The notes under the pieces: generated by a model | Seen by the model: the letters and a program-made list of their open reading frames with translations, nothing else | Databases searched by the model: none | Told to the model about the DNA's origin: nothing | Shown: in pieces, positions 1 through 29,343 of the stretch | Layout: each line of letters opens with the position of its first letter | Numbering within the stretch: position 1 is the stretch's first letter | Translations under genes and position numbers: made by a program | Source of the DNA: a virus | Strand: one strand, 5' to 3' | Length of the DNA: 30,515 bases | IMG/VR virus record: IMGVR_UViG_3300032086_003564 | Coordinates: 1 to 30,515 of that record

Positions 1-1893
1 ATCTCTATACTCCGCTATTTCTTGTGGTACAGATGAGATCTCTTGCTCCAGAGCATCAAGCTTTTTCGAAAGTGCGGTAGAGTCTTCCTCGAAAGAGGCT
101 ATTTCGCGCTCCTTAACAGAAAGTAACGTCTGTTCACGGGCCAGCTCAGTTCGAGACTCCTTGATTTCTGAATCGTAGTCAGTGCCTCTTAGCCGTTTAA
201 GCGCACCCTTGAGGTCAACAGAGTCTTCATTACACATTTTGAACTTCTTGTCAAAAAGCTCAAGATCCAAAAACTTGCCTAGGATTTCTTTTCGTCGAGT
301 CGACCCCTCGTTTAGATAAGAAAGCGAATCAAGCTGGCTAGCCATAGAAGTTAAGAGGAAATCTTCAACAGTCCCAAACATTTTCTTGATGTTGTAATCT
401 GTTTCCATCCTAGTAGTGCCGTTTAGTGAATGCTCTTCTTGAGTAACGTTATCGTAAACATCGAAGTCTACGTCAGTTTTGGCTTCTACGGTCTTCTTCC
501 CCTTGAGAGTTCGGTTATACTTCTTGCTTTTTCTTTCAATCTTGTATGTTTTTGTGCCAATAGCGATCTCAACGTACCCACGGCACTCTTCCTCATTTTG
601 ATTGATTAAATTAAGGTTCTTTCGATTGTTTTTTGAGGTAGTGTTGTAGACGGTATAAAGCAGACTATCGATGATACTAGATTTGCCCGAGAAGTTTTTA
701 CCAAGAATGCCCACAACTCCGTTGAGATTTTCAAAATTAATTGAATTGCCTTCGCCATAATTGAAGAGGTTGTCCCACTCTACTTTCTTTAGGCGCCAGT
801 TAACATTGCGAATGACGTCTTCTTGTTTTTCTGCAGAATTATTATACTTTTTGTTCATCTCATACACTTTCTTTAGTGTATCGTTCTCCGCGCAGTAGTC
901 CTTGAGGTACTCGTCAATCAGTTCTTCTTGTACAGCAATATCGCGCAGGTCCTCCTGGAAGACAGAACCGGCAATATTTTCAACGCTTCCGCGTTCGCCT
1001 GCTGCGCGGCTTAAATAAGTTACTGCTTCAGGCTTAAACCTAGCCTTTGCGACATCTATCGCCTTTCTCACCACATCTAGGGGCAGATTGTTTTCTGAAA
1101 CCAGCCGCAAACGAGCGCCTGTTACGACTTCCAACTTGTTTGGCAGTCTGCCCTTTGGTGTTAGATTAATTGTTATAAAAGGTTTCGGATTTTTTAGCTC
1201 GACATGTTCGCATGTGTAGGTATCTTTATCTGTGATATCCCAAACTAGAAAACCTTTGTCGTTACTTTCCCCGTGGTTTTGTTGTACCGTCGAACCCGGA
1301 TAGCGTATTTTTCCCGCTTTGTCAAGGGTTTGATTGGTCTTGTGTATATCGCCAAGAAAACCATAATCGAAATTATTAAAAATATTAACATCATCTTCCC
1401 CACTTTCCATTTTCCATCCGGTATCTGTCGTTACACCGCTAACAGCGCCGTGGTACAGAGCAATATTAACTCTATTTGTGTCGGACGGAGTACACCAGTT
1501 GTCTCTGTCAAACACCGACAAAACATTAATCGTAAATTTTTCATCTAAATGCGTTTCTCCGGAGTCTTTTAATAAATATAAATTTTTGTGCCCTAATGCC
1601 TTGGCAATTGGTGTTAAGGCATCCTGGCGGCTAGAGTTTCTTAAGTTGCCGTCGTGATTACCCAAAATAATATAAGTCGGGGCAATGTCGGCGAGGTTCT
1701 TAAAGAAGTCACTACACATCTCAACAAACTCTGGGCTAATTTGTGTCTTTGTATGTGCGATGTCTCCACAGTGGATAATATAATCCACCTTGTGGCTTTT
1801 CAATTTTTTATAGAGGTGCTTGAATACCTCTCTATATTCTTTGTGATATTTTAAGTTTCTAATATGCGTGTCTGCAATATGAGCAAATTTCAT
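1..1893 (-). CDS. Fused Mre11/SbcD (gp47-like) nuclease and Rad50/SbcC (gp46-like) ATPase, truncated at left edge
   Basis: The frame is open without a stop from an ATG at 1893 to position 1, giving 631 codons with the C-terminus outside the window. I checked every in-phase triplet. Residues 1-185 carry the calcineurin-like phosphoesterase motifs of Mre11/SbcD: D8-T-H10, G43-D44, G78-N-H80-D, H148-G and G181-D-I-H184-K, followed by a YPGS...QQNHGE segment. Residues 265-375 look like the Mre11 C-terminal region that binds Rad50. A Rad50-type ATPase N-lobe follows, with Walker A GKNFSGKS at 398-405 and a charged helical stretch from about residue 530 that begins the coiled coil. Walker B, the signature motif and the zinc hook would lie off the window. 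In T4 these are two genes, 47 and 46, which process DNA ends for recombination-dependent replication. A ribosome site GAAAGG lies 6-7 nt before the ATG. The family assignment is firm; the full length is unknown. Confidence 0.93.
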   Translation of the reverse strand, partial: MKFAHIADTHIRNLKYHKEYREVFKHLYKKLKSHKVDYIIHCGDIAHTKTQISPEFVEMCSDFFKNLADIAPTYIILGNHDGNLRNSSRQDALTPIAKALGHKNLYLLKDSGETHLDEKFTINVLSVFDRDNWCTPSDTNRVNIALYHGAVSGVTTDTGWKMESGEDDVNIFNNFDYGFLGDIHKTNQTLDKAGKIRYPGSTVQQNHGESNDKGFLVWDITDKDTYTCEHVELKNPKPFITINLTPKGRLPNKLEVVTGARLRLVSENNLPLDVVRKAIDVAKARFKPEAVTYLSRAAGERGSVENIAGSVFQEDLRDIAVQEELIDEYLKDYCAENDTLKKVYEMNKKYNNSAEKQEDVIRNVNWRLKKVEWDNLFNYGEGNSINFENLNGVVGILGKNFSGKSSIIDSLLYTVYNTTSKNNRKNLNLINQNEEECRGYVEIAIGTKTYKIERKSKKYNRTLKGKKTVEAKTDVDFDVYDNVTQEEHSLNGTTRMETDYNIKKMFGTVEDFLLTSMASQLDSLSYLNEGSTRRKEILGKFLDLELFDKKFKMCNEDSVDLKGALKRLRGTDYDSEIKESRTELAREQTLLSVKEREIASFEEDSTALSKKLDALEQEISSVPQEIAEYRD

Positions 1894-1914
1894 GTTACAC
1901 CTTTCGTAATATAA

Positions 1915-1942: not shown

Positions 1943-2881
1943 CTACATTCCTGATATTCTTTTCATTAAGTATCCATCCAGATTGATGAACTTGGCAGAG
2001 CTTTTTCTTTCTTCAAATTGTTTTTTTGTCATCTCGCCAACATCGTTGAATGGCTTTACATCTACTAAATATAACTCTATGTCATAGTTTAGAAAAAGTC
2101 TTATCAGCTTGTTTGTTTTTTTGTCTGCGTCTGGGTCTAAAGCAAGGTAAACAGGCGTGTCATTTTTGATAATCTGGTCGAACAAGCTTGACGTCTCCGT
2201 TAGCGTCGAGCCCAGAAGAGGTACTGAATTGTCGCCTGCCTTAATAGCATCAAACACGCCCTCTACAATTGTAATGGGCTCGTCAAAGTCTATGTAGGGG
2301 TGGTTAAATATAATGTCTTTTGAAGCCTCTGGATTTAGATACTTTCTCCAATCGCGGTCATATGAGCGAGAGATAAAGAAATTGACATCGCCATCTTCGT
2401 CAAAAGAGGGTATCACAATGCGGCCTCCGTATTTACCTTTAGGACAGTAACCTATTTTCCATTTTATGATGTCTTTTTTGCCAATTCTGCGGCTTTTTAA
2501 GTAGTTGATTGGATACATTGATGTGGTGGGTAGTTCTTTGTTGGCCAGTGAAATAAAGTCTTTTGGTAGGGAAATTTTATCCCTTGTATCCTCTTCTACC
2601 TGACCAAACAACTTGTCAGCAAATTTTTCAACTTCGATCTGCTGGGTCAGGCTTTTCCATTCATACTTTTGATCTGTTGTACCAAACTGCCTTACAATCC
2701 TATAAATGTTCCTGCCAGACCAATCGCAGACCCAGCACTTAAACGCGCCCTTTGTAAGATTAACGGAGAGCTTGCGCTTGTGGTGATCGCATTTTGGACA
2801 GTGAAAGAGATACTCTGCGCCTTTATTATAGAAGCCGCCTAGTACGTTTTTTAATAGCTTTACTTTTCTCTCTTCTGACAA
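1943..2881 (-). CDS. DNA primase, DnaG/gp61 type (CHC2-like zinc finger plus TOPRIM)
   Basis: The product would make RNA primers for lagging-strand synthesis at the phage fork. From the TTG at 2881 it is 312 aa, close to T4 gp61 (about 340 aa). A zinc-binding module is visible as C28-P-K-C31 and C49-W-V-C52. A TOPRIM core follows, with the glutamate of IVEG at E207 and the acidic DPD pair at D249/D251. No helicase domain is attached. The frame has no ATG or GTG before the zinc finger. Candidate starts are TTG at 2932 (73-nt overlap with the resolvase gene) and TTG at 2881 (22-nt overlap). I prefer 2881 because the extra 17 residues only mirror the resolvase coding sequence in another frame. 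Neither start has a good ribosome site, so the gene probably relies on translational coupling, or on frameshifting from the gene ahead (see findings). Function is well supported; the start is uncertain. Confidence 0.88.
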   Translation of the reverse strand: MSEERKVKLLKNVLGGFYNKGAEYLFHCPKCDHHKRKLSVNLTKGAFKCWVCDWSGRNIYRIVRQFGTTDQKYEWKSLTQQIEVEKFADKLFGQVEEDTRDKISLPKDFISLANKELPTTSMYPINYLKSRRIGKKDIIKWKIGYCPKGKYGGRIVIPSFDEDGDVNFFISRSYDRDWRKYLNPEASKDIIFNHPYIDFDEPITIVEGVFDAIKAGDNSVPLLGSTLTETSSLFDQIIKNDTPVYLALDPDADKKTNKLIRLFLNYDIELYLVDVKPFNDVGEMTKKQFEERKSSAKFINLDGYLMKRISGM

Positions 2882-3378
2882 TCTAACCAGCCCGCACGTG
2901 CGATCACCCAACTGTCTGCCTTGTCGAAACAATGTGGCTTTGGATTTCCGTGCCTAGTATATTCTATAAGAACATCTGGTACGTTGTCAAGTACGTATTT
3001 TATAACGACCTCTTTGGCCTTGGTTCCTCTTGGCACAACAATACCGCACGATTTCCTAGCGGACACCGCTGCTAAATACGTCGGCTCAACGCCATACTGT
3101 CGAAAACAGATCCAAGAAACAATACCATTGAATCTAGAAAGTGTAGAAAGAGTTTTAGCTGACGAGAACCCGCTCCTAAATGATTGCAAAGACTGCTCAA
3201 TATAAATTCTATCAGGCTTGATAGGAAGATTACAAATTCTTTCATTTACAAATTCCGCTTTTTCAAAAATGCTTTTAAATTTTCTGGTATCCCATGCATC
3301 ATTATAGATAACCTTGCCGTTATCATCAATAATTGTGGCACCGGTAATGCTGGTGCTAACATCTAACCCTAAAATCAT
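2860..3378 (-). CDS. RuvC-like Holliday junction resolvase (RNase H fold)
   Basis: This 172-aa protein has the length and catalytic layout of RuvC. It starts MILGLDVSTSITG with D6 in the first strand, has E61 in IYIEQ, and ends with D152 and D155 in DKADSW. The D-x2-D spacing matches the 138/141 pair of E. coli RuvC. It would cleave four-way junctions formed during recombination-dependent replication and before packaging, the role that endonuclease VII (gp49) plays in T4. It lies between the structural genes and the primase, and its last 22 nt overlap the primase frame. The ATG at 3378 has no clear Shine-Dalgarno sequence; instead TATAAT lies 7 nt before it. The family call is confident; the exact substrate is inferred. 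Confidence 0.85.
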   Translation of the reverse strand: MILGLDVSTSITGATIIDDNGKVIYNDAWDTRKFKSIFEKAEFVNERICNLPIKPDRIYIEQSLQSFRSGFSSAKTLSTLSRFNGIVSWICFRQYGVEPTYLAAVSARKSCGIVVPRGTKAKEVVIKYVLDNVPDVLIEYTRHGNPKPHCFDKADSWVIARAGWLDCQKREK

Positions 3379-6799: not shown

Positions 6800-9625
6800 T
6801 CAGTTTTTAATTTCTTTTTTGAATGAAAAATTGATGTCAATCTTTTTTCCGCTTCCCTTTGAAGTTAGTCGTAACTTGTATTTCTTCTTTGTTGTAGCAT
6901 CTGAAAAAATGCTGTCTACGTTTTCGTCATCAGCAAAATATAGCTGCTGGATCGACGGTTTTAAATAAATATACTTTTGACAAGCTTTTGTATTTATTTT
7001 ATTTTTTGGTGGAGTCATGTCAAAAAGACGTATAATTGGCTTAACAGCACCTTTTTCGTCTATTAGCTCAACCTCGTACACTGGACTGGGATTTGATATG
7101 TGGCCATGGCTGTCAATCGCCCTGAACGTGTAATAATATTTAGTATTTGGCAATATAGCTTCTTCAAACACCTCGCCATTAACTTCTTCATATAAAGAAA
7201 AATCTCTGTATGTGCTTGGCTTTTCTGCAATTCTAAATATCTGGAATCTCTTGACCGGGTCGTCTGAACCAAACTCGACTTTGCCATCTTCTAGTGGATT
7301 GCCAAAATCGTCAACGACCAATTGGGCTCTCTTGATTCTATCAAATGCTTCCACATCGCTGTCTAAAATTATTGTAGGAACCTGTCTGTACCTATCGGAT
7401 GCGCCAGTCATTAATATTTTTAATCTATTGTTAACAGCACGGTAGGGCAAAATGTTGATGTCTGGTACGACAGGGGGCTTGTCTAATATAAGAATTTCCG
7501 GTGTGGAGAATATCTTGTCCTCCAATAATACTATCGAAGGCTCAACAATTGTGTTGAACAAAGCAGTGTACTGTATTAGGTTTTCTTCTAAATTTTCGTG
7601 TATACCGTTTTGATTTCCGATTGGGCCGTCCAGATCGACATATTCTACGGTTTGGACGCCCTCACTTGAAAGGGGTGGCACTACAACAGAACTTAAAGTT
7701 CTAGCTGCAGGCGTGTCTTCCGGTTGGCCCTGAGAGTCTAGCCACTGGTAGCGATATTTACTTCCAAACACAGCACGGTGAGCGTAAACGTGATACCGAT
7801 ATGTTGAATACGTTGCGTATTTTAGCTGTGTATCGACATATTTTACAATATCTAGCTCGGAAGTATTTGGAATTAATATGTTTTGTACAATGTCTTCTTG
7901 TCCGTTTGGCAGAATTCGTATTTTTTCAATTCTATAAAACAAATCTTCTGTATAGGCAGGGACGCCCTCTAAAATGTCGCTGTATGACCTTGCATTGTCT
8001 ATATAAGTTTGCAAAATTTTTGCTTTGAAAGCAGAGCCGAAAAGCTTTTTAAATATAACGTTTTCATCGCTGTCTAGATTTATGGGTTCTGTTGATCCGT
8101 CTCTAAACATTGACATGTAGTTTCTTAAGTCACCATCAGAAAAATCTGCCGTTGCAAATGGCTGCTGCTCACCGTTGTAGACGCCGTTTTCTTCTGTTTG
8201 CCATCTGTCTAGCGTCTGTGCAATGCCAACAAACTTAAGCTCCTTTGTGGATAGATTAGAGTTAGCAATTGAATCGTCTTCCGAAGTTGACAAGTCTCCT
8301 AAATCAGTATCTTGAGAAAAAATAACGAAATCTTGTGCATCTAAAATTTTCCAAGCGTCCGAGTAACTTCCAATTGAACTTGGCGGTGTCACTGTATTTA
8401 GAATAACCTCGGACATAAATTTTGTCAAGAACATCTTCTTCATTGTGTCCCCGAGTTCAGTATCTAGCTTTGCAGTGAATTCTAGTTCTGCATAGAAAGG
8501 AAAGTGCTTTTTGTACTGATCTACTTTGTTCAAAAGTTTTAATACTCTTGGCGAAAAGACCAGATTAGTCATAGACTTTTCCAACACAACTTGGTCGATA
8601 GAGGGCCCGCTTGGGGGCATCTGCGCCACATATTCATTGAAATAATCAGCGAATAAAGAGTCCGCATCAAACTTGTCAAAGCTTAAAGAAATAATTTTCT
8701 CCAAAATCTTACTATGCTGTTGCGGCTTGTTCGGTGGCCAGTTGCCCATATAGCCAAACAGCGTAACTAGGGCTTCAAGCGGGTACTTTTTTAACAAATT
8801 TGTATAAACACTTTGTTGCTCCGCTGAACCGGGGGTTGCATTAAACCCAGAGTATTTTTGCATTTCTTCTACAATAGGAAATAACGAAAATAGACCTTCT
8901 TGATTTAGTTTGTTGTTTGTAAACAGCTTTAAAAATCCATACATGCTAGGTAAAGAGTTTTGGACTGGGTTGGGCCCACCAGATAGAACTCCAGTTGCTT
9001 TTTCAAAATTGCTACTGTCTAGTCTTTCGTTGTAGTATGTTTTATAGTTTGCAAAAAAAGCTTTTCCAGTAGGCTGCTTGCTGTTTAGCTGTGCCGGGGT
9101 AAACGGGTTGATCGACTCGTGGTAATGGTCTGTAAAATCTTGATTTACTTTGACAATAGGGCTGTAAGTTGCGTCAGTTTGCTGGTCGACAACTCCGGTT
9201 TTTGTATAGTAAATCCACCTTTTTAGTCTTTCTGCCGGGTAGTTATCGTCGATATTGTCGGTGGTAGCAGAAAATACAATTTTATATTTTTCTCGAACAC
9301 TCTGGTCTTCCAGAGACATCTCGTCATTAGGCTGCGTGTCCGGAGGGCAGATCTCATAGTTTAGTGAGCGATCTCTGAAAACTTTTGGTGCAGTCCAATT
9401 ATTAGAAAAAGCCAACTTTCCATTCTCGGATTCTCTAAAATCCCAATTTTTTCCTAAAACAACGCGCACTTTATCGCCAACGTGGTTAAAATAAACTGCA
9501 TCATTTATTGTCTCTTGTGTGATTATAGACAACTTATCATTTTCGTCTCTAGGCGCAGCAAAATAAGCGTCAGAGTCGACGACAAATTTTTTCTTTCCTA
9601 CTAATTCTGGTTGTTTTTCTGCCAT
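6800..9625 (-). CDS. Large virion protein (941 aa) with a C-terminal fibronectin-III-like domain
   Basis: The first 700 residues are unrecognised, mixed alpha/beta and free of membrane segments. Around residues 717-858 there is a region with the look of a fibronectin type III domain: a proline-rich lead (KPPVVPDI) and, near its end, PNTKYYYTFRAIDSHGHIS followed by PSPVYEVEL. Such domains are common in tail and baseplate-decorating proteins, where they bind cell-surface carbohydrate weakly. The C-terminal 80 residues are lysine-rich and beta-forming. The ATG at 9625 has a modest AAGAGA ribosome site 6 nt ahead. The gene follows the 1235-aa gene by 31 nt and ends in TGATGA. A peripheral baseplate or fibre protein is my inference. 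Confidence 0.78.
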   Translation of the reverse strand: MAEKQPELVGKKKFVVDSDAYFAAPRDENDKLSIITQETINDAVYFNHVGDKVRVVLGKNWDFRESENGKLAFSNNWTAPKVFRDRSLNYEICPPDTQPNDEMSLEDQSVREKYKIVFSATTDNIDDNYPAERLKRWIYYTKTGVVDQQTDATYSPIVKVNQDFTDHYHESINPFTPAQLNSKQPTGKAFFANYKTYYNERLDSSNFEKATGVLSGGPNPVQNSLPSMYGFLKLFTNNKLNQEGLFSLFPIVEEMQKYSGFNATPGSAEQQSVYTNLLKKYPLEALVTLFGYMGNWPPNKPQQHSKILEKIISLSFDKFDADSLFADYFNEYVAQMPPSGPSIDQVVLEKSMTNLVFSPRVLKLLNKVDQYKKHFPFYAELEFTAKLDTELGDTMKKMFLTKFMSEVILNTVTPPSSIGSYSDAWKILDAQDFVIFSQDTDLGDLSTSEDDSIANSNLSTKELKFVGIAQTLDRWQTEENGVYNGEQQPFATADFSDGDLRNYMSMFRDGSTEPINLDSDENVIFKKLFGSAFKAKILQTYIDNARSYSDILEGVPAYTEDLFYRIEKIRILPNGQEDIVQNILIPNTSELDIVKYVDTQLKYATYSTYRYHVYAHRAVFGSKYRYQWLDSQGQPEDTPAARTLSSVVVPPLSSEGVQTVEYVDLDGPIGNQNGIHENLEENLIQYTALFNTIVEPSIVLLEDKIFSTPEILILDKPPVVPDINILPYRAVNNRLKILMTGASDRYRQVPTIILDSDVEAFDRIKRAQLVVDDFGNPLEDGKVEFGSDDPVKRFQIFRIAEKPSTYRDFSLYEEVNGEVFEEAILPNTKYYYTFRAIDSHGHISNPSPVYEVELIDEKGAVKPIIRLFDMTPPKNKINTKACQKYIYLKPSIQQLYFADDENVDSIFSDATTKKKYKLRLTSKGSGKKIDINFSFKKEIKN

Positions 9626-9656
9626 TTTAATCTCTTCTATAACTAGTATTTAGCTG

Positions 9657-12600
9657 TTAATAGCCTCCACCACTGGATCCTCCACCACTGGACCCTCCTC
9701 CGGCGCCGCCTGTTGGCGTAGAAACTGGAAAGGTTGGGCCTGCGGGCTCTGATTCTGATTCTGACGTTTGCGTATTCGTGCTTTGCATGTTTTCTGCGCC
9801 AGCCCCCTGGAAGCCGCCACCAAAGTCAAAAGTCTGCCCAGTTGATTTTGCATACTCGTCCATTTTTTGTTCATTCTTTTCAGCCCAGAACGTGTTCTGT
9901 GCCACGTCATCTTGACTTGCAAATAAAGTCATCTGGTTTATCTGTTCAACTGCTGCAACGCCTGATATGGCTGCGCCGGGGGCCATCAAAAAATAGCTAT
10001 CTAATATTGGAAGCCTTAAGTCTTTTGTAAGTCTTTCATCAAAATATGACATACGACAAAGCAACATTCCGTTTATATTATCTATGTCTTCTTTTGTTAG
10101 CAGCGACCAAGACTCTTGATCATACTTGGCGTTGCCAGAGCTTCCTCTAAACACCTCTATTTTCATAGTTAAGTTTAGATTAAAGAAAAGATAGGTGTTA
10201 TATGGCTCTGGATTATTAGAGATGGCACGCCATGGTAGTGTCGCTATTTCTTCATCGACAAAATTTTTATGATTATTTCTGATAAACGGAAGCTTAAAAT
10301 TATTCGGTAGATTTGGAATAAATTTTATACCGGCGGCATCAAAAACGTCACCCTGCGTTATTAGATTTATGTTATAAGCTTTTAATTTTTTAGTTGCTAG
10401 CTTGTCGTTGTTACTAAAATTTTTGAAAAAAGTATTTGGCGCCACGTCGCCGTCGCTAAAATCTTGTATTTTATATTGGAACTGATAAAGACTTCCGATA
10501 GCTCCGAAAGGCGTGCTTACGATCGTTGCGCCAGCTTCTGGTATGTCAACAGAGACTGCTCCTGCCTCGCGTTCATTGCCCTCAGAGTCTTGAAAAAAAC
10601 TGTCGTGTAAATCCACATCATGTGTCGTGATACCCAGTTTTTCGAAAAGTTCTTTGTATGTTTCTCTCAAGGTGTAGTCGCGACCGAGTTGCTCATAAGA
10701 GAACGGTGCGTCAAGTAAATCAGCGTTTTTTTCGTCCTCTTTGTTAAAGCTATAATTTAACAAAGCAACCAAAAGATTTTCAGCGCTCTCTGTATTAAAA
10801 TCGTCTTGCATTGGCCGGTAAGAAAAATTATTACCTTGGACTCCGCTAGACAGTTCTATGACGGAAGGAGCAAGATAAGAATATCCAGTATCTGAAAGAT
10901 ATCTACTATCACTTTGTGCAGGTGGCTGGGCATTGTCTCCTTGGCCGGCTGATCCGATTTGAGAGTATGCGTCTATATTGTACTCTGACCCCTCTCCTTC
11001 TTGTGGCACAAGTGGCTTCAAAGAATACTTTGCTACTTCTGCTCTGCATCTTTCCACAAAATCTCCGGCGTTGACAACTTTTAAGGCCTGCCCTGCTGCG
11101 GCAGAGGAAGGGCTGCCGTCTAAAGAAAGATAATCTGAATATATTCTTTTGTTGCTTATCGCCTCATAAAGCTCTGCAGGGTGATCAAAAGTGTGCTCCT
11201 CGTATATTGTATGGTTTGCTTGAGAGATGAAGTTTTGAAGAAGCGACGTGCTATTGTGTCCTCCAGAATATGCAGAACTTGTAAACCCACCAGAAGTTTT
11301 TTTAAGCTTGTTGATCTCCAATATAGCCTCTAGTTTTTTTACAAACAAAGAAATCAAGCCTAAAACGTTTTGTATGCCTTTTGGTGAGCCAGTTATGGGA
11401 TCTAAAGAATTAGTTAAAGACAGTGAGTTTTCAAGCGCTATCATAAAATCAAGCTGTCCCTGAAAGATCTTCTGCACTTGTGAAACTAGCACAGGAACCG
11501 AAGTCCACGGTGTGGTTTCAGAAAACAGTTCGTAAGCTTTCAAAGCAAACTGTTGATCGTAGCTGTTATTTTTGTAGTATCTTTTAAATCTGGCTTTTGT
11601 AAATTCTTTTGCTTGATTGCTAGAAGTATGGGTAAAGCCGGCACTTGCAGGGTCTGTATACGAAGAAACCGCTAAATCATAGTATTTTTCCAACAATATT
11701 TTTGAATTTGACAGCTCTTTATACACTTCATATAAGAATTGATACGAGCCATCTTTAAAATTAACTTCTAGTCGGTATTGGTACATGCCCGCAGCTTTGC
11801 TGGCTACTTCATAATCAGCGAACATAAAATATCTAATTTTGTTGTCATCGTCCGCAGATATGTTAATCGCTGTAAAAATAGAATCTTCTGTAATTTTTGC
11901 TGCAGCTGTTGAGCCATGCGGGCTAAGTGTTGCAACTAATTTAGACGGCTCTTCATAGGCCTCATCGTTTGCATAAACTTCTCTTGATTTACCAATGACG
12001 TATTCTTTGACCCTGTCTCTGTAGATCTTTAGTTCTAGAAAACTAGATCTAGACAAAATTTCTATCAGGTATTCAGAAAGCCCGGGCGTATCTGGATACA
12101 GTTGCGAATTATTTTTTAGGAGTTCTTCCATGTTGATAAAAAATATGCCACGAGCGATGCCGTCGATGTCACGAGTTAGATAAAGTTTTGAATACTCCGA
12201 ATCATTGTCTATTATAAACTCTCTTCTTTTTTCTTTTTGAAAAACAGCGCCCACCTGATCGAGCATTTTATCGAACGCGGTTTGCTCTGCTATGTTGGCT
12301 TGCTGCTGTGCGCTGGTGCCAATTAGTGAAACTTCTTCTAAATTTTTTCCTTTCGTAGTGCTGCGTAGGTCTAGCAATTTATTATTTGGAACTCTTGCTA
12401 GCTTTAGCTTTGGCTGGTCTTCGGCCGAATTGTGCTGTTCTCCTACCATCCAGCCCCTGTAATCAGAGGGGTTGTCTAGGTTGCTTAAGCCGCCATCCCC
12501 AACATAACCATCAGGTGCTGGGTTGTTTAGCCACTCTCTATCGCTGTGTACGTGTGCGGCGCCCTCCCAAACTTGACCATTTGGTAAAAAGAAGGCTTCG

Positions 12601-13364
12601 CGTTCTTGCTGAAGCTGGCCGGCCATATAGACTACCTCGCTATTAACAGGGCCTTCTACAACAAATTCTTCAAAAAAAGAATCGCTCGGTAGAATTTCTA
12701 CGCCAATGTCTAAAGAATTAGCCCAGTAGGGTACGTCTAAGAAGGTATAAAAAGCAAAACCTAAATTTTCATTTTGCTCGGGATCGTATATTGTTTTGTG
12801 CTGGAAAGGTATAACATAATATGGGCGTCCATTGACTATTTCTTCCCTTACTTTACCTTCCGCCTCGAAATTTAATAGTGCGTCTTTTGTGCCTATGTTG
12901 CCTATTATGCTTGAATTTGACACTTGCACAGGAGTTTTTATGGAACCCTCCTCCATATTAAACATGTTCTCCACATTTGGTCTTGGCCCTGTTAAGCCGC
13001 CTGTTCCGCCGCGCGGCAAATAGTTGTCTCCATAAACTATCTTTCCCCCATATAAAGAGCCGCGGCCGGGTCCGGAAAAGTTAAAAACGCCATGGCGAAC
13101 AGCAGACGGCAATATACGTCGAACATTGGCAAACGTTTTGTATTCGAGCACCTGAATAAACATAGCATCCAAAAAATTAGAGTTATTATCATCCAAAGAA
13201 TTAAGCCAAGCAGAATCAAGAAGTCTTTTTTTATCTTGGTAAAGCTCTAGGTGTAGGGTGATGTCTAGCTTACCCTCGATAGAAGAGTCCTCTATCGTGG
13301 TTTTCTTACAATAGATGTAAGGTAGTAAGCCGCCGCCTGTAATGTTGTCTAATATAGCAGACAT
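9657..13364 (-). CDS. Large virion protein of unknown function (1235 aa) with a Gly/Ser-rich tail
   Basis: No domain is recognised. The chain is mixed helical and beta, lacks a signal peptide and has no evident enzyme motif. The last 18 residues are almost entirely glycine and serine, ending GGGSSGGGY, preceded by a Ser/Glu/Pro/Thr-rich stretch; this is a flexible tail or tether. I take the ATG at 13364, not the TTG two codons upstream. That ATG overlaps the stop of the 332-aa gene as TAATG, and AGGGGA lies about 10 nt ahead, typical of translational coupling. The overlap with the 332-aa gene and the short gap to the 941-aa gene suggest the three are made together in fixed ratio as virion parts. 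Confidence 0.8.
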   Translation of the reverse strand: MSAILDNITGGGLLPYIYCKKTTIEDSSIEGKLDITLHLELYQDKKRLLDSAWLNSLDDNNSNFLDAMFIQVLEYKTFANVRRILPSAVRHGVFNFSGPGRGSLYGGKIVYGDNYLPRGGTGGLTGPRPNVENMFNMEEGSIKTPVQVSNSSIIGNIGTKDALLNFEAEGKVREEIVNGRPYYVIPFQHKTIYDPEQNENLGFAFYTFLDVPYWANSLDIGVEILPSDSFFEEFVVEGPVNSEVVYMAGQLQQEREAFFLPNGQVWEGAAHVHSDREWLNNPAPDGYVGDGGLSNLDNPSDYRGWMVGEQHNSAEDQPKLKLARVPNNKLLDLRSTTKGKNLEEVSLIGTSAQQQANIAEQTAFDKMLDQVGAVFQKEKRREFIIDNDSEYSKLYLTRDIDGIARGIFFINMEELLKNNSQLYPDTPGLSEYLIEILSRSSFLELKIYRDRVKEYVIGKSREVYANDEAYEEPSKLVATLSPHGSTAAAKITEDSIFTAINISADDDNKIRYFMFADYEVASKAAGMYQYRLEVNFKDGSYQFLYEVYKELSNSKILLEKYYDLAVSSYTDPASAGFTHTSSNQAKEFTKARFKRYYKNNSYDQQFALKAYELFSETTPWTSVPVLVSQVQKIFQGQLDFMIALENSLSLTNSLDPITGSPKGIQNVLGLISLFVKKLEAILEINKLKKTSGGFTSSAYSGGHNSTSLLQNFISQANHTIYEEHTFDHPAELYEAISNKRIYSDYLSLDGSPSSAAAGQALKVVNAGDFVERCRAEVAKYSLKPLVPQEGEGSEYNIDAYSQIGSAGQGDNAQPPAQSDSRYLSDTGYSYLAPSVIELSSGVQGNNFSYRPMQDDFNTESAENLLVALLNYSFNKEDEKNADLLDAPFSYEQLGRDYTLRETYKELFEKLGITTHDVDLHDSFFQDSEGNEREAGAVSVDIPEAGATIVSTPFGAIGSLYQFQYKIQDFSDGDVAPNTFFKNFSNNDKLATKKLKAYNINLITQGDVFDAAGIKFIPNLPNNFKLPFIRNNHKNFVDEEIATLPWRAISNNPEPYNTYLFFNLNLTMKIEVFRGSSGNAKYDQESWSLLTKEDIDNINGMLLCRMSYFDERLTKDLRLPILDSYFLMAPGAAISGVAAVEQINQMTLFASQDDVAQNTFWAEKNEQKMDEYAKSTGQTFDFGGGFQGAGAENMQSTNTQTSESESEPAGPTFPVSTPTGGAGGGSSGGGSSGGGY
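9664..9693. repeat. 15-bp tandem repeat, two copies, coding for Gly/Ser
   Basis: Two adjacent 15-bp units (9664-9678 and 9679-9693) differ only at the last base. They encode the GSSGG-type repeats at the C-terminus of the 1235-aa protein. A third, diverged unit may follow. Such a repeat can change copy number by slippage, which would alter tail length without shifting frame. Confidence 0.8.
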
Positions 13365-14362
13365 TAACAAATATCCCCTGGGTTGTCTGATTCGTCAGTA
13401 TAAATATCAAATACTTTTCTTTTCTGTTCGTTTATGACATCTTGACAAAGTTTAGTTCTAGCATCAGCGTATACACCTTTTTTCTCGTTAATTGGGTCAA
13501 ATTCACAAAGTATGTCATTACTTATTTCATCGTCGGTTAGCAAATCAAAATAATATTCAACATGTGACACATCTTCTTCAGGAGTCGTATCTTCTATGAA
13601 ATCTATTTCGGTGTCCAAGACTAAATTTTTTGAAAACTCTAACTGCCTCAGTGTTTCGATTGTAGTAGTGCCTTGTAGTTCTTCTTCTATTTCAAATACC
13701 TCTATGTCGAAGTTTTCTTTTTGAAAAAGTCCATTGTTTTCAGAAATTTTTAAAACAACGTAAAGCTCGTTATCCGCGGACAGAATATTCACGTTAGAAA
13801 CCAATCCATCATCTTCTAGTTCTTCTAGATCATTCAAAGCAGACGCGTCATTAGTGTTATACTGTACGTCTATGCTAACTATACTTTCGAGTTGAGGCAC
13901 TAGCTGTAAATTGTTGCCGCCCGTTTTTTCTAAAATGTCCAAAGATTTTGAAGAGCCAGATAGTTCACCATTTAAAAATTGCACAGACCAAGAGGGCGCG
14001 TATTCAGAGTTCAAGTCACTTGTGCCTAAATAGTTTGGCAAAGCATAGCTCTTTTCTGCTGTTCGCTGGACGTCTTGCGAGAATGCGTTAGCTTCGCCTG
14101 AAACGATCTTATTATAATTGTTGTTAAACTCTTTTTCGAGTGACGATATTGATATTTGGTGGTGCATGGTTGGGGTGCTTTCTATCCTGGCCTCACTTTC
14201 TTTTTGAACCTCTGTTAGGCCAGTTTTTTGCACGTCATAAATTATATTATCATCGTGAAAAGAATAAAAAGCTGGCTTAAGCTTGCCTTTTGATAAAAGG
14301 TGACGCCCGAACTGTGTTAGTTTTATATCAATTACTTCTTCTTTTTTATTAAAAAATTCCAT
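13364..14362 (-). CDS. Putative virion structural protein (332 aa) with an LTxxGR N-terminal motif and acidic body
   Basis: Residues 1-50 contain EEVIDIKLTQFGRHLLSKG, then YSFHDDNIIYD, which matches the N-terminal pattern of the 375-aa protein at 5626-6753. The rest differs: it is strongly acidic, with EELEDDG and IEEELQG stretches and a cysteine-containing C-terminus. I recognise no characterised function; the N-terminal motif is, from memory, recurrent in marine myoviruses. The ATG at 14362 overlaps the TAA of the 1791-aa gene as TAATG, and its own TAA overlaps the next ATG in the same way. The gene is thus coupled on both sides. It is probably a small partner or adaptor for the giant proteins around it. 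Confidence 0.78.
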   Translation of the reverse strand: MEFFNKKEEVIDIKLTQFGRHLLSKGKLKPAFYSFHDDNIIYDVQKTGLTEVQKESEARIESTPTMHHQISISSLEKEFNNNYNKIVSGEANAFSQDVQRTAEKSYALPNYLGTSDLNSEYAPSWSVQFLNGELSGSSKSLDILEKTGGNNLQLVPQLESIVSIDVQYNTNDASALNDLEELEDDGLVSNVNILSADNELYVVLKISENNGLFQKENFDIEVFEIEEELQGTTTIETLRQLEFSKNLVLDTEIDFIEDTTPEEDVSHVEYYFDLLTDDEISNDILCEFDPINEKKGVYADARTKLCQDVINEQKRKVFDIYTDESDNPGDIC

Positions 14363-17300
14363 TAGTCTTCAATTTCAACCCTGATGTCGAGTTTAAAAGC
14401 CTCCATTAAAGAAAAGTCGTCATATGGCCAATTATACCCAAGCCTGTCTTTTAATGTAAGGTTGGTGTTAAAGCCTAGGCCTAGCTCTTCCCTCTCAATA
14501 TCTGGGATTCGCAGCCTTGTTCTTTCTAGAACAGCTCTCTCTATTTGTCTATTTTTATAATTTTGATAATCTTTTATGCCTCTTTGTTTAATTTTAAATG
14601 TCATAAATTTCAAGTTTTTGTAAAAATCTCTAGAAGTTTTTATCCATTGCGAATTTAGATCAGCTTCTAAGACGTATTTTTTTAATTCTGTGCTGTATAG
14701 ATAACTAGGGTCTAAAAAGTTAGCCGGGTTAATTGAATTTAAACTCACGCCAGGCTCTGTTCCAGCGTACTGGGCGCCCTTTGTCTTTGGCATCCAGCTA
14801 TGCCTGTTGTTTGGTGAGAGGTTTAATTCAATCGACGAAACCGCTTTTTCAAATGCCAAGCTAGAATCTGGCATGACACCCTGATAAATGTCCATCAATT
14901 CTTGTTTACTTAGCTCGTGCTCAAATGGCACCACAATCATCTGGAATGGGCCAGCTTCTTCTACTTTTTCTCCAAGATAGGCCTGTCGATAATTTATGAA
15001 ATCTAGTTCTACAGGCAATTCATATCCAGGAATTCCTTTCTGCTCATCGCCTAGTAGCGTTTCAATCATTTTGAACACGTCTGTACTGGCTGCCTCGTTA
15101 TAAGAAGTTTGTGATTCAAAACCTAAATGTTCTTTTCTCGTTATCGAACTGGCATCTAGATTAGCGATTAAACGATCGAGACCATATTTTCTTTTTGCTA
15201 GCGCCATCGACAACATGTTATCAAAAAGCATATTGTGAATTGGCAAGAAATGTTTGCCAGGAATTATCTCCCTAGTAACAAATATTTCACCGGAAGGTAC
15301 CTTATCATTACCCCTAAGACGAACTGGCTTGTCAAAATAAGGAACTATTACAAGCGCTTCAGAAATTGTCTTGGAGTCTGCAAATTGTCCAATTTCTTTT
15401 GTTGAGGCCTGTAGTCCTAGCTGTGAAATTAGAGAGCCTGTGGTCTCATTTGTGTTTTGTGATGGCTTGTCTACATAAACGCCCTCGCTTGGTGTGGATA
15501 TATCAGTTTTATAAGACAATACTTTTGTATTGTTTGTCTTGCTGGATAAAAGATCGCTAATTCTTAAATATATACCCTTTGACAAACCTGATTCATTTCG
15601 TAGTTTTTGTATTTCTTTTTGTATTTGTGTGTCGTACGGATCAGAGCCATATCCCCCCCACATTCCACGACCAGTTTTCATGTCATGATATGAGTTTGTG
15701 ATAAACGTAACAGTTTCTTTCTTTTCGGCTAGCAGGCCTTGTTCTTCTCTGTTTGAAACAGCAGAGAAAGAAGATGAGAAGTCTAACACGGGACAAACCC
15801 ACTTTGGATTAACATACCAAGAGAAAGCTTTTATCTCTGTGTCTGGGCGGACGTAGTTAATGTCAGCTTTATTAAATATATCGACACTGCTATCAATCTT
15901 CATTCGCGTTGAAGAGAGGCCAGAAACAGAGCCAGTGCCAGGTGTTTTGGCACATAAGCTATCTCTAACAAGTTCATCAAAATCTTGTTGTGTTTTCGAG
16001 CCTGTCTGGTAAGTATCTAAATAATACGAATTTTGATCGGTTTGCTTGAAAAGGCCGTTCCAAGTGTTAATATTACTACCGCTAACGGCCGTGACTACTA
16101 AGCTACTCTTGCCATAGAAATAAGGCGGCGTGTAGGTTTGATAGGCCGGATCTGTTAAATTAGCGGCAAAATATGACTCATAGTCGCCTAATCCAGTCCA
16201 CGTGCCGTCTGTGTTAAAGTCGGACCTGACTAAAGGTTCTTGCCTGCTTATTTTGCCTGTGGATTCATTGTAAGACTCGCGTGGAAATACATTAGCAGAG
16301 CCGGACATTTTAACGATTTCTACCGGCGGGCCATAAATGTAGCCTCTCATTCCTCGATTTGTGGGGCGCGCACCGTACCACTCGAAGCCTGAAGGGTTTG
16401 ACCCGGTGGACAGGCCGCCAATACCAGAATCACGAGGACCTTCGGCCATGACTTGGTGGCGGCCCATCTCTAAAGAGACTTCCATAGCGAATTCACTATT
16501 TGCATCTATGCTAACATCGGAGTCTTGTCGATAATCTGACACGAATACCGGCAATTTTTGGCCTGGTAGTTCATCTTGATCTTTTAGGAAGAAGTTCATT
16601 GTCTCAGACAAAAAGTTGCTTACGGAGGCCTCATACAGAAATTGCTCGGTATTGTCGTCAGCCATGTACATTAGTTGGGAACGAGGGCCTGTATAGGTAA
16701 ATGCGGCGCCTGGATGCTCGCGGACATCTTGAGATGAAGCTGCAGCTGAAGCAGTAGCAGCTGCTCCTTCTGGATAATTAATGTCTAGGTCTAGAAAATC
16801 AGTTGTTAGATAAATCCTATCTCCGTCATGGCCCGGGCCGATGCCATACTTCTGCTTCAATATACTTGTATCATACAACGCCTCAAATGGCATTCTAAAG
16901 TCTGGAGTGTTGTTTAAAATCGCCGGAATACATCGCGAGGCACCCATCATATAGAAGCCCCCATAATTGAAAGATGACGTGATTTGAATTAAAAATCTTT
17001 GATTAGAGTTGGCGCGGCCATACTTTTCAGGATTTTTTTCAACGTCGGCCGGGGCATAGTCAGCTCCCGAACCACTAAAAAACACCCACGGAGCAAAATA
17101 AGTTGGTTTTTTACTATAAACAGGATAATCTACGGCGATGCCTGATTTTATTGAGTTATACAAAATGCCAGGTGCGAAAAACGGCTCTAGAAAAGACTGC
17201 AGCTGGCCGTTGTCTTGGCCTGCCTGCTCAATTCGATCGTTTGTCTGGCTATCGCCATGCTCCGGGCCGAGACTAGGCTGAATATTGTTGTATATAAACT

Positions 17301-19737
17301 GCTTAAATTTATTGCCTATGTCGACAGTTTTCAAAACCGGGTAGAAATTTTTCTCTGGACGCAGCTTTTTTAAGCCATGAGCAGTAAATCTTATTTTAGC
17401 CGGCACTGTATCAAAACCATTGTTCATCGGCGTCGCAATTAAATTAGAAACCTGCCCTGTGTCAGCATGAGAGAACGCCTCATTAAAAATAACACCGGTA
17501 ACATCTTGCAGATAACTAACTGCTTTTATGCTGTTTTTAAACCCTAGCTCCTCTTGTAAAGTTGAGGTAGCAACATCTTTTGACAGCGCAACATATTTGT
17601 ACGCGAGAGTGTTTTCGGAAGACCCAGAAAGGCTTTCTAGATCGGAGCTAGCAGTAACGAAGGCACCATCTAATGACAGGAAATTTAGCTTGAAATCTTT
17701 TGGTTTTCTAGAAATTGGAAAAGTGACGTTTCTCTTAATCACCGAGGGGTTTAAAGTTGCAAAACCATCCCCAAGCTGTTCGGTTGCGGCTTGTGAATCA
17801 TAAAAAGAGTTTGCAACATTCTCAAGATTAAAATTTGAACTAAGTTTAAATTCAGTATAAATCTCTTTTTGCATTTGATTTTTGAAATATCTTTCATAGT
17901 AATATTGTATGTTATTGGAAGTTTTGTGCTCGGGCACATAACTGTAGTCACGGCCGTGCAGCTTCATGTCCTGTGCAAAATCAGCATATGAATTATAGAA
18001 GGGGCTTCTTCCTCTGATCAGATTTGTAGCGTAAAACGGAGTATTGTACGGGAATGTATGTCTATTGTACTGAAGCGATGCTGTCTGCGCACGATAGCCT
18101 TTTAGGTCTTCGGTAACTGATCCAGTGCGATGAAAAAACATTGTTGGCTTTGTACTATATACTAGCTCACCAGCGGTGCCAGTCAGTATGTTCTCTATTT
18201 GTGCAAAGGCGCCGGTGGCGTTAGTCACAGTAGAATATAAATTTCCTCCTGGCATGCCCGATGGTAATTTTCCTCCTGAAGCTGAGACGACCGCAGAACC
18301 GGGTTCGCGGGGGCCACCAATATGATTCGTAACAAAGACAGAGTTGTCGGTTACAAATGTTTGGTTGCTCGGGTGTCCAATATCCTCCCTCATTCTATGT
18401 GGCGTAAGCCCAATTTGTTTTCCAAAACCACCGTGACTAGAGGTTAGATATGGCGCGGAGCTATATATGTCAGGACGGGCGTCGAGAGGCCACATACTAA
18501 AAAGAGATATGGGGTGAGGCTGATAGCTTTCAAAAGTAGCAAAGGCGCGGCCGGGGACGCTAGCAGTTGGAACGCCTCCGTTGACTAATGTTGGCATGCC
18601 ATCGCCTGCCGAGTTGGTAGTCGTGGCGATGCCAGAGTGAACAATAATGCCAGGCTCAATAAAACGGTACGTAAAGTTCCATCCTAGCGACGCGCTGGAC
18701 ACGCTTCCAGAATGGATTAAGTCGTAGAACCCCTCACGGCTGGTTTGTGTTGGCGTTGTTGTGACCTGTATAACATCTTGTGAGTTGAGGGCAGCTGCTT
18801 CTGTTCTAAATCTAGTCATGCCCGAAGAAGTTATCTTTTGTTGTAAGGTTGGCTGCGCGTCTCGCCAAAAACTTCTGTTAACGGCGCGATCGTAACCATT
18901 TGGTCCAGTGCCGGCCGACTCTTCGTATGAAAGCTTTTCTAGCTTGTACGGCCTAAATACATTAACAGGTTTTGGAAAAATAGTTTCCGAATATATAAAT
19001 CCGCTAGCGCCATTTTCTTTAGCCACTTCGATAAAATTATAATACTCTTGTTTAGGTTTTCTTGTTGGCCGGCCATCAAATGATCCAGTATAGCGGTCTG
19101 GCCCAGCAATACTAAGCGCTTGATTTACTTCTTTGTTTTCGAAAAAAATCATTTGATTCATAAAAGTTGAGCGTATTCTGTACGCCCCTTGAATATCATA
19201 TATAAACGGTTTGTGCGCCTTTACAACTGCAGGCTCATAGAATCGATTTAATGTTGGCTGCTGGTAGAACCTTGGATTTTTTTCTGAAGTTGCCAAAGTG
19301 TTGTTGAGTGCTTCTAGATATTCGTTGACTTCTTGGTGTGTGTCGTTTTCCAAACGATATCTTAAAAACTTCTTCTCTTGCTCGCGAGCGAGGGGATCAG
19401 CATACGTAGTATCAATTGACATCGTATTGTGCAGGCGTAAATTTCTAGCTATGGGGTGATCCCCTCCGCGGTATTGTTTCCAGGAAGAGTGTTGGTAAGG
19501 TCCGTTTCTGTTGAGCAATAAGAAGTTTAGATAATTTGGCTGAGGGTTAATATTTTGACCAACCACTTCAGAATTATAGTATATTGCCGGACTTTGCTCT
19601 CCGGGTTGTCCTAAAATATTTGTAGATGCAGTAATAGGATCAACGATAAGAGTATTTAATCCAACAAAATCTGCGTTGATATCGCTTGCGCCCGTTATGC
19701 TAGCACTTATAAAACTTAAAGATCCACTTAAAGCCAT
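14362..19737 (-). CDS. Giant virion protein of unknown function (1791 aa)
   Basis: The protein is rich in Tyr, Asn, Ser and Pro, has no signal peptide or transmembrane segment, and shows no enzyme motif. Landmarks are DFVGLNTLIVDPI near residue 25, LLLNRNGPYQHSSWKQYRGG near residue 75, a FYNSYADFAQDMKLHGRDYS segment in the first half, and a C-terminal NWPYDDFSLMEAFKLDI. From memory, these phrases recur in giant structural proteins of uncultured marine tailed phages. The gene has a clear GAGGTT ribosome site about 9 nt before the ATG at 19737, and follows the 1933-aa gene by 36 nt. Placement downstream of gp6-like and the possible gp7-like protein argues for a baseplate or tail-fibre role. It may be the second half of what other phages make as one chain (see findings). 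Confidence 0.82.
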   Translation of the reverse strand: MALSGSLSFISASITGASDINADFVGLNTLIVDPITASTNILGQPGEQSPAIYYNSEVVGQNINPQPNYLNFLLLNRNGPYQHSSWKQYRGGDHPIARNLRLHNTMSIDTTYADPLAREQEKKFLRYRLENDTHQEVNEYLEALNNTLATSEKNPRFYQQPTLNRFYEPAVVKAHKPFIYDIQGAYRIRSTFMNQMIFFENKEVNQALSIAGPDRYTGSFDGRPTRKPKQEYYNFIEVAKENGASGFIYSETIFPKPVNVFRPYKLEKLSYEESAGTGPNGYDRAVNRSFWRDAQPTLQQKITSSGMTRFRTEAAALNSQDVIQVTTTPTQTSREGFYDLIHSGSVSSASLGWNFTYRFIEPGIIVHSGIATTTNSAGDGMPTLVNGGVPTASVPGRAFATFESYQPHPISLFSMWPLDARPDIYSSAPYLTSSHGGFGKQIGLTPHRMREDIGHPSNQTFVTDNSVFVTNHIGGPREPGSAVVSASGGKLPSGMPGGNLYSTVTNATGAFAQIENILTGTAGELVYSTKPTMFFHRTGSVTEDLKGYRAQTASLQYNRHTFPYNTPFYATNLIRGRSPFYNSYADFAQDMKLHGRDYSYVPEHKTSNNIQYYYERYFKNQMQKEIYTEFKLSSNFNLENVANSFYDSQAATEQLGDGFATLNPSVIKRNVTFPISRKPKDFKLNFLSLDGAFVTASSDLESLSGSSENTLAYKYVALSKDVATSTLQEELGFKNSIKAVSYLQDVTGVIFNEAFSHADTGQVSNLIATPMNNGFDTVPAKIRFTAHGLKKLRPEKNFYPVLKTVDIGNKFKQFIYNNIQPSLGPEHGDSQTNDRIEQAGQDNGQLQSFLEPFFAPGILYNSIKSGIAVDYPVYSKKPTYFAPWVFFSGSGADYAPADVEKNPEKYGRANSNQRFLIQITSSFNYGGFYMMGASRCIPAILNNTPDFRMPFEALYDTSILKQKYGIGPGHDGDRIYLTTDFLDLDINYPEGAAATASAAASSQDVREHPGAAFTYTGPRSQLMYMADDNTEQFLYEASVSNFLSETMNFFLKDQDELPGQKLPVFVSDYRQDSDVSIDANSEFAMEVSLEMGRHQVMAEGPRDSGIGGLSTGSNPSGFEWYGARPTNRGMRGYIYGPPVEIVKMSGSANVFPRESYNESTGKISRQEPLVRSDFNTDGTWTGLGDYESYFAANLTDPAYQTYTPPYFYGKSSLVVTAVSGSNINTWNGLFKQTDQNSYYLDTYQTGSKTQQDFDELVRDSLCAKTPGTGSVSGLSSTRMKIDSSVDIFNKADINYVRPDTEIKAFSWYVNPKWVCPVLDFSSSFSAVSNREEQGLLAEKKETVTFITNSYHDMKTGRGMWGGYGSDPYDTQIQKEIQKLRNESGLSKGIYLRISDLLSSKTNNTKVLSYKTDISTPSEGVYVDKPSQNTNETTGSLISQLGLQASTKEIGQFADSKTISEALVIVPYFDKPVRLRGNDKVPSGEIFVTREIIPGKHFLPIHNMLFDNMLSMALAKRKYGLDRLIANLDASSITRKEHLGFESQTSYNEAASTDVFKMIETLLGDEQKGIPGYELPVELDFINYRQAYLGEKVEEAGPFQMIVVPFEHELSKQELMDIYQGVMPDSSLAFEKAVSSIELNLSPNNRHSWMPKTKGAQYAGTEPGVSLNSINPANFLDPSYLYSTELKKYVLEADLNSQWIKTSRDFYKNLKFMTFKIKQRGIKDYQNYKNRQIERAVLERTRLRIPDIEREELGLGFNTNLTLKDRLGYNWPYDDFSLMEAFKLDIRVEIED

Positions 19738-19773
19738 TTGTATTCTAACCTCACCATATAATTAGATTATATA

Positions 19774-22700
19774 TTAAATTATTGATCCTGTTATCCATCT
19801 TGTCTGCTGGTCTGTTCTAGGAACCATGTGGGAAATGAATCGGTTGTCGTACACTGATGCTGTGATTACAGTCATTCCAACAAAGTCTGTCGGACTAGTT
19901 ACCGAGCCAGACAGCTCTAGCCTTTCAATGTTATTCCTGTGTGTCTTGTGAGCCGCGGCCTGGCCAACAAGATCAAAATCTTCGCTTCTAATTCTACCAA
20001 CGACTTCGTTTCCATATACGCGCGCCGTAGTTGCGTCGTGGGCACTTACACCAAAACGACCACAGTGAGCCTGTAACTGCGAATTGTGCACTTTTCTTGG
20101 CCACGGGTTTCTATACGTTAGCGCGTTTCCGACAGCATAAGTTTCATGCGCAGGGTCTAAATAACCTCTAGAAAGGGTTTCAAATCCGCCAGGAGAGCTG
20201 AATCTGGTCATTATTCTAGTTCTGTTGCGAACGGAACCAGTTAAATATGAGCGATCTGGCAGCGTGTAAATGGGCTCTGACACGCTGAACGGATCCACAA
20301 CCGGCCCGGGCGGGCGCGATAAAGCTAGCTGTATACTGCCATCCTGTCTTTTAAAAGTGGTTTTAGTAATTTGAGAATTGTTTTTAACAAAATATGGATC
20401 ATTTACCTCTGGACTAACTGTGCTGACATATTCATACCTATCAAAATAGTTGCCAGCTTGGGTTGGAGAGCTGCCTGTAGTTTCAATATTGCGTATATTT
20501 ACCGGTCGCTTCGCTAGTAAGCCTCTGGTCAAAGTTGCATATGGCCTGTTGTGATCATCAAAAGTTGGATGAAAAACTTTAAAGGAGTTTCTGGAGATGT
20601 CTCCTGACGTGGCTATTTTAAGGGTGAAACTATCAATTGCGCAATCACCTAGTTGTGTTATGCCAGCAGTATAAAGAAGCCTTATGTAAAACCTCTTTCC
20701 AATATATTCTTGGAGAGCTGCGGTTTCTGCGCTTGTAATTCTAGCTAAGCGCCAAGCAGCGCCTGCGGAGGCTTGCTGTTGTCCCGAAATGATTGTTGAT
20801 TCAAACGGGGTGCCGCCGGCGTCCCACCTAACAAGCAAATCAGTCACGTCTGTTGTAAAGTTTTTGTCGGTCGAGGCTTGGACCTTTAAGTTACCCATAT
20901 TGATGCCAAACATGTGGTAGTAAAACTCTAAAGTTACGTCTGTCGAACTTTCATAAAGGTCTAACAAATCAATTAGTGGAGTTGCCAGACCAAATGTTTG
21001 ACCAACACGAGATGGCAACACTTCGCAGTATGCATAGCCGCCAGTTCCAGCGTCGCGCTGATCTTTTGTTGGGCCCGTGCCGACTGTCGGAGAAGAACCA
21101 GACAAAAAAGTCCAAGAATTGTCAGTTCCAACCCCATTGCGCCAATATTCGGCTGGGGAGGGGTCCCCTTCGGCTGAACCAATGGGAAGGCTAAGAATTC
21201 TAATATTATCAGTGCCTGTAGAAGTAGCATTGTTAAAGCCTTCGTTGAGAATAGTTGATTGAGTGCCGTCAAACAAAAATTCTTTTAAGTGCCAGCCCTC
21301 TGCTCTGGTTAGCGCATCATCTGAGCCCTGGTTGAGTTTAATATGTCTGTGCTGTTGTCCACCAACGTGCTTTTCTGTAAACGGACCTTGTAGAGGAGTA
21401 GCAGAATTAAAACCATATTTGTCCTCATGAATATTGGTAAAGTCTATTTTAAACTGATCAGAATACAATTTTTGATAGCCCGTGTCAAGTGAGGAGGTAA
21501 AAATTTGAAATGGTAAAATTAAACTAGACTTTGCATCCGTGTATTTCAGGTCGTTTTTCTTTGTTCCATCTGCTGTTGATTCTAGAGTTTCTGCCTCCGT
21601 CATTGTCAAGGCCCTAATTCTAAGCTTTTTCTTATCTAATTCCGGAGGGGTTGGTGCATCGTCGCAGTCTGTCTCTTTTGTCTCATTATCAATGTCCAGA
21701 TAAATAAAATCGTCATCGCTGCCCCACCGAATAACACCTTTATAAAAATCATGTAAATTATTATCTGCTTGAGTTGAGCCGCCACGTAAATCTTGAGCTT
21801 TTTCTATTGTAAGGTCCGCAACACGAGAAAGGCTTCTGTCTGCATAATAGCTCTTTAGATATCTTGTGGATGTTGTAGTTGTTAATCTAGGCTCGGAGCC
21901 GCTTTGCTCCGTAATGGCAATTTTTAAAATTTCATTTTTGTTGCTATCAATACTGCTAACGCCGGAAGTAAGAGGGCCATCTCTTTCTGCCCTCTCTTTC
22001 CACCACAAACAATTAGTGTTTTGGTTAGAGTTTTCTGACGGAGACACCGGAGCATGACCAAATTTCCAATTATATCTTAATTCTTCAATACCTCTTAGCG
22101 ATCCAAGAGGGTCTTTTGTTTTGGTTTCTAAAGTAGGAAACTTAGTCCAGTATTTGTTTCTTTCAAGCACGTGGCTTTCAACCATGTTTCTCAAAAACTC
22201 TGTATTGTTAGACGACAAAGGAATGAGCTGGGCTATCATAATTGTCACAGCATCATCGATCCATTTAAAATATTCTATGAATTTTTCTAACTCCAATCTT
22301 TCGTTTTCTACACTCTCGAAGAAAAGTTCACGGAGTTTTTGCATTTTTTTATAATAAGGGCGATACCTATTTACGGGTTCGCCGATCAGGTTGTTAAAAT
22401 TATTAACCGTAGCAAAAAAACGAAGCATCTCTTCAGAAATTGTCTGGTACATGCTTTTTTCTACAGACAAAAAGTGCTCGATGTAGTTTGTATCCCTTGT
22501 AAAAACCATCTCATCTTGCTGATTTAGCGTCTTTATCATGTCATCGCTGTTTACAACTTCTGGTAATTTTAGCTTTGCTGATTGTACAAATTCAATATCT
22601 ATAGCTTGATTTAGCAAATTTGCGTCAGTAGAAAATTTGTCGCCGCGGCCAGAATAGTTATATTTTGATATCGGAGAAGCCCAATAATCACCAAACTTTA

Positions 22701-28947: not shown

Positions 28948-29343
28948 TTAGTTAACATCCTCGGCTTGTATTTGTATTTCAGTTTGCAAGTTCATGCTGG
29001 GAACGTCAAACTCGATAATTATTGAAAGAACATTAGAGTCTACTGAATCTTTTGGATCAATCCCATGATTAAAGAGTATTTTGTTGATTCTAATAAACGG
29101 CATATACTTGCTTGCCTGATTTGTTATTCTTTGCCGTATCATACCAGAGACTCTTTGCTCTGGCTCAAAAAGAAAATTTCTTAAGCCAACACCAAAGTCC
29201 GGGTTCATCATTCTTTCGCCAGGGGCAGTCAAGAGTAGATTTTTAAAATTTTGCTTTATTTCTTCAGCATAGCTAGAAATTAGGGTATAGTTTCCGTATA
29301 CATCGTCTCTTTGCAGCGGTAATTTTGGTCCAATACCGTTCAT
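28948..29343 (-). CDS. Baseplate wedge protein, gp25-like (GPW/gp25 family)
   Basis: The 131-aa length equals that of T4 gp25 (132 aa). The core TAPGERMMNPDFGVGLRNFL followed by FEPE at residues 39-62 is the signature of the family, where the conserved EPR-type loop here reads EPE. gp25 sits at the inner baseplate and helps nucleate the sheath. It is immediately followed by gp6, as expected for wedge partners. Start at 29343 is supported by AAGGGG about 9 nt upstream. The gene begins 12 nt after the stop of the gene at the right edge. Confidence 0.92.
   Translation of the reverse strand: MNGIGPKLPLQRDDVYGNYTLISSYAEEIKQNFKNLLLTAPGERMMNPDFGVGLRNFLFEPEQRVSGMIRQRITNQASKYMPFIRINKILFNHGIDPKDSVDSNVLSIIIEFDVPSMNLQTEIQIQAEDVN

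Follow-up and report, generated by a model that had tools for sequence, protein, structure and literature searches.

The window, a 30,515-nt (30.5-kb) virus fragment (IMGVR_UViG_3300032086_003564), begins with a minus-strand frame that runs from 1893 to 1, is open across 631 codons and leaves the window at its edge (Table 1). Two domains were matched on this single polypeptide with Pfam: Metallophos at residues 1–184 (E 5.5e-13) and AAA_23 at residues 374–624 (E 2e-9). PHROGs likewise matched it to SbcD-like (2.4e-39) and SbcC-like (9.9e-17) families. Together, the two databases divide the frame into an SbcD-like nuclease (residues 1 to ~344) and a Rad50/SbcC-like N-lobe (residues ~370–624). 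The original prediction was of one uninterrupted frame carrying a phosphoesterase, a Rad50-binding region and a Walker A N-lobe; frame, Pfam, PHROGs and a structure model all confirm this, and the domain matches bear out the proposed order of nuclease before ATPase.

Table 1. Features of the fused gene and its neighbours in the window.
Feature	Position	Strand	Basis or conservation
Fused Mre11–Rad50 gene, 5' 60% (631/1051 codons)	1..1893	-	remainder at L005:6894-8156
Shine-Dalgarno-like AAAGG (within GAAAGG), upstream of ATG at 1893	1900..1904	-	read from sequence
Small DnaG-type primase (CHC2 zinc finger, DNAG_N), upstream neighbour	1943..2932	-	conserved at 68/70 loci with enough flank
RuvC-like Holliday-junction resolvase	2860..3378	-	conserved neighbour at 54/60 loci
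Mre11/SbcD-type calcineurin-like phosphoesterase, residues 1–222	1228..1893	-	Pfam PF00149/PF12850, phrog_100
Metal motif D8-x-H10	1864..1872	-	invariant 86/86
GDIAH motif (D44)	1753..1767	-	D44 invariant 86/86
GNHD motif (N79, H80)	1651..1662	-	N79, H80 invariant 86/86
H148, counterpart of Pyrococcus Mre11 His173	1450..1452	-	invariant 86/86
GDIH motif (D182, H184), Asp replacing Pyrococcus His206	1342..1353	-	invariant 86/86
Capping domain, residues 223–297	1003..1227	-	AlphaFold2 model
Helix-loop-helix (residues 319–333, 337–356), counterpart of the Mre11 Rad50-binding domain	826..939	-	AlphaFold2 model
8-residue linker	802..825	-	model; length 8 in 81/85 members
Rad50 ATPase N-lobe, residues 365–541	271..801	-	PF13476, model
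Walker A GKNFSGKS, residues 398–405	679..702	-	G403, K404 invariant 86/86
Start of ascending coiled coil, residue 545 onward	1..261	-	model

The rest of the gene was found on a second contig (L005), which differs from the window by 2 mismatches in 6,893 bp and contains the entire fused gene as one frame of 1051 aa. This contig supplies the C-terminal part: coiled coil, an apical two-cysteine loop, the signature GSGAEK, Walker B (VFILDEP) and the D-loop region. Both ATPase lobes are hence present in the fusion (G403/K404 and D993/E994, with SGAE in the signature). Extending the gene had been expected to reveal Walker B, the signature and a zinc hook; the first two were indeed found, but the apical cysteine loop is CX7C in place of CXXC. 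The claim that all phosphoesterase motifs are present also holds in part. The Mre11/SbcD metal motifs (DxH, GDxx, GNH(D/E), H, GxH) can all be recognised and all eight metal-site residues are kept, but the last motif reads GDIH and not GHxH, with Asp for His206. Although conserved in the family, this substitution could alter activity.

An alignment of 86 members shows no substitution at the eight metal-site residues, the Walker A G/K, the signature S-G-x-E or the Walker B D-E, whereas the identity of synonymous codons exceeds expectation by only 0.02. This contrast indicates strong purifying selection on the protein. In the AlphaFold2 model, the phosphoesterase is followed by the capping domain, the helix-loop-helix, the 8-residue link and the first Rad50 strand, with coiled-coil arms of ~175 residues each and an apex loop at residues 719–730. 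This is a monomer model built from 62 sequences (mean pLDDT 82.7, pTM 0.51), and at such a pTM the placement of nuclease versus ATPase is unreliable. Searching each half with Foldseek matched solved Mre11-Rad50/SbcCD chains, and the best full-chain structural matches were proteins of giant viruses and a jumbo phage (Tupanvirus, Harvfovirus, Terrestrivirus and a Tenacibaculum phage). In separate Mre11 proteins, the helix-loop-helix attaches to the Rad50 coiled coil at its foot. From the Thermotoga complex, Yoshida et al. predicted that 9–12 linker residues are necessary for a fusion (PMC3175470).

The order of the primase and RuvC-like genes, both upstream of the fusion, is also kept in a 484-kb phage (L003), and a large terminase lies downstream of the fusion in 37 of 68 loci. 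The nearest relatives of this terminase are from Flavobacterium phage immuto, in which a gp46/gp47 match was undetectable, and Microcystis phage Mel-JY01. Eight contigs of 147–204 kb were also examined. In every one, the SbcD-like and SbcC-like families gave a single strong match apiece, in both cases within the fusion, with no second strong gp46 or gp47 match; one contig (G007) has an additional weak match to each of the two families. All eight encode a RecA-family protein (RecA/UvsX). Between the replication genes and the baseplate wedge genes, the window contains very large ORFs of 941, 1237, 1791 and 1933 aa (6800-25575), which are probably tail or fibre proteins, the first three without a Pfam or PHROGs match. 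The baseplate wedge subunits themselves (phrog_219 and phrog_261, at 27151-28947 and 28948-29343) suggest a contractile-tailed (myovirus-type) phage.

From its sequence and predicted structure, the gene very probably encodes a Mimivirus R555-type enzyme, with a complete phage Mre11–Rad50 (SbcD–SbcC, gp47–gp46) machine contained in a single chain. Two identical chains would form the usual 2:2 head; ATP would close the ATPase heads, with the nuclease domains pairing above them. The enzyme would resect DNA ends and pass them to RecA/UvsX of the phage, supporting repair and recombination-dependent replication. By analogy with T4 gp46/gp47, such a role would fit the single SbcD/SbcC matches and the presence of RecA. 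The fusion would fix a 1:1 ratio of the two activities and their pairing in cis, leaving the basic machine unchanged. The fixed ratio had been foreseen in the original prediction, as had placement of the nuclease at the ATPase head, but the latter does not result from fusion, as it is found in the unfused complex too. A single chain of ~1,050 aa that assembles the whole machine would suit structural and enzymological work.

SMC-like nuclease complexes function in defence as well, and the fusion might be a nuclease for host-DNA degradation or anti-defence instead of a replication and recombination enzyme. We consider this improbable, however, as the long contigs show no separate gp46/gp47 pair to take the replication role, and the surroundings (the conserved primase and RuvC-like resolvase, and RecA in every long contig) point to replication and recombination.

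Even less probable is that the fused frame additionally yields a separate Rad50-like product from an internal start. Three candidate starts lie near the junction in L005 (GTG343, ATG346 and GTG394), but all are without a Shine-Dalgarno-like site. Only 12 of 82 members have a junction start with such a site, inside the range of other stretches of the gene, and synonymous codons at the junction are unconstrained. The junction thus gives no sign of a strong start for a separate gp46 product, either in L005 or among the 82 members. The frame continues without interruption across the junction on ~110 contigs. Where the two genes are separate, as in E. coli and a T4-like Klebsiella phage, they share 4 bases, and a 1-base error would be enough to join gp47 to gp46. 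An assembly or base-calling artefact is nevertheless ruled out by these independent contigs with the same open junction, by a linker length that is fixed in the 85 measured (8 residues in 81) and by the deposited Mel-JY01 genome, which annotates one 1066-aa protein.

In the viral collection, relatives are encoded by at least 577 matching stretches. The search for the same fusion in related phages, as proposed in the original prediction, was positive: uninterrupted fusions with frames of ~1,010–1,260 aa occur on ~110 separate contigs (including a few from the same virus and a few cut by the contig end), as well as in Mel-JY01 and a 735-kb phage. The suggestion that this is not a common arrangement is contradicted by this abundance and by earlier work. 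Yoshida, Claverie and Ogata (2011; PMC3175470) described Mimivirus R555 as a fusion of an N-terminal Mre11 and a C-terminal Rad50, and listed twelve further fusions in phage, plasmids, bacteria and eukaryotes. Fusions in the same order were reported from a Bacillus phage and from marine metagenomes, aquatic phages were argued to carry many fusion genes (with primases on the same scaffolds), and the His206→Asp substitution was noted in R555 as Asp242 (PMC3175470). According to a review, SbcC/SbcD are practically universal in jumbo phages (PMC7824862). The window protein is a further case of the Mre11–Rad50 fusion that has been in print since 2011 and that occurs widely among giant viruses and aquatic phages. 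Far from being an oddity, the fusion is the usual arrangement across a large group of aquatic phages of T4-like type.

Compared by published description, R555-type fusions share the domain order, the retained helix-loop-helix, a short linker and Asp for His206 with the window protein; the fused form is the only one in the virus, and primases are on the same metagenomic scaffolds, as here. R555, at 1351 aa, is the larger protein and has the more extended coiled coil, and PMC3175470 discusses no hook motif. The Mel-JY01 protein (WWT39521.1, 'AAA domain containing protein') is likewise a full-length fusion, of 1066 aa and near a primase, but is ~30% identical and has a canonical CXXC hook (CKHC). 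The T4 gp47/gp46 and T5 D12/D13 pairs have the same two activities, gene order and setting in phage replication and recombination, but consist of two genes, often overlapping, and gp46-type proteins are shorter. The split T4-like phages sampled also have GHxH and a CPTC hook, in contrast to GDIH and CX7C in the window's clade. Each half of the fusion has the same fold as its counterpart in E. coli SbcD/SbcC. These are, however, two proteins, with a much longer SbcC (1048 aa), GHIH, a CPLC hook and an LSGGE signature.

Trees built for each half place the fused forms on one side and the split forms on the other (support 68/54 for the nuclease and 87/96 for the ATPase), although these trees are small, with seven split rows, several long branches and modest support. 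This is compatible with one fusion event among the sampled phages, but does not prove it. Given the 4-base overlap of split genes, such a fusion needs little.

The cysteines at the apex of the coiled coil are C722 and C730 in the L005 protein, judging from model and sequence, so the window's clade has CX7C where Rad50 and SbcC have the CXXC zinc hook. Among 85 members, we counted 57 with CX6C, 13 with CX7C (including the window's clade), 12 with CXXC and three with no pair; the longer loop, with the consensus P-C-G-x5-C-[KR]-F-I-x-D-A, hence replaces CXXC in 70. Fusion does not account for the variant hook, since CX7C is also present, together with an SGAE signature, in a split SbcC from a Moorella phage. 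CX6C and CX7C hooks are little described, and a non-exhaustive literature search found no account of them. Perhaps the fusion clade swapped the zinc hook for a loop that dimerises differently, for instance through another metal geometry or a disulfide, which would give distinct tethering of DNA ends, but we regard this as rather doubtful. The variant is in any case a natural test of the cysteine spacing that a Rad50 hook needs.

Several relatives depart from the simple pattern. Besides the fusion (278537-282121), the 735-kb phage (LR756501.1) encodes a short SbcD-like phosphoesterase (451881-452144) and has a separate SbcC-like gene (670999-672753, E 3.7e-74). Among the plasmid matches listed, none covered 80% of the query, and these were Rad50-like halves only. 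A contig assigned by binning to Candidatus Nitrosopelagicus (CALBOT010000005.1) encodes a fusion of 1053 aa that is close to that of Mel-JY01; the contig is either a mis-binned virus contig or a thaumarchaeal virus. In a divergent relative (L130:2983-6223), the protein is split within the nuclease domain into 224 aa and 860 aa, in frames that overlap by ~10 bases without an inserted ORF; this may be a natural split, a frameshift or an error. The fused gene of the 484-kb phage (LR756508.1, L003:3944-8169) is interrupted at nearly the same place, between GDIHK and SGSLIQQN (YPGS-type). A group I intron was rejected here, as there was no Rfam match. The interrupting sequence is a separate ORF of 305 aa that has a TnsA-like endonuclease domain as well as zinc-knuckle cysteines; it is probably a homing endonuclease by which the fusion is split again.
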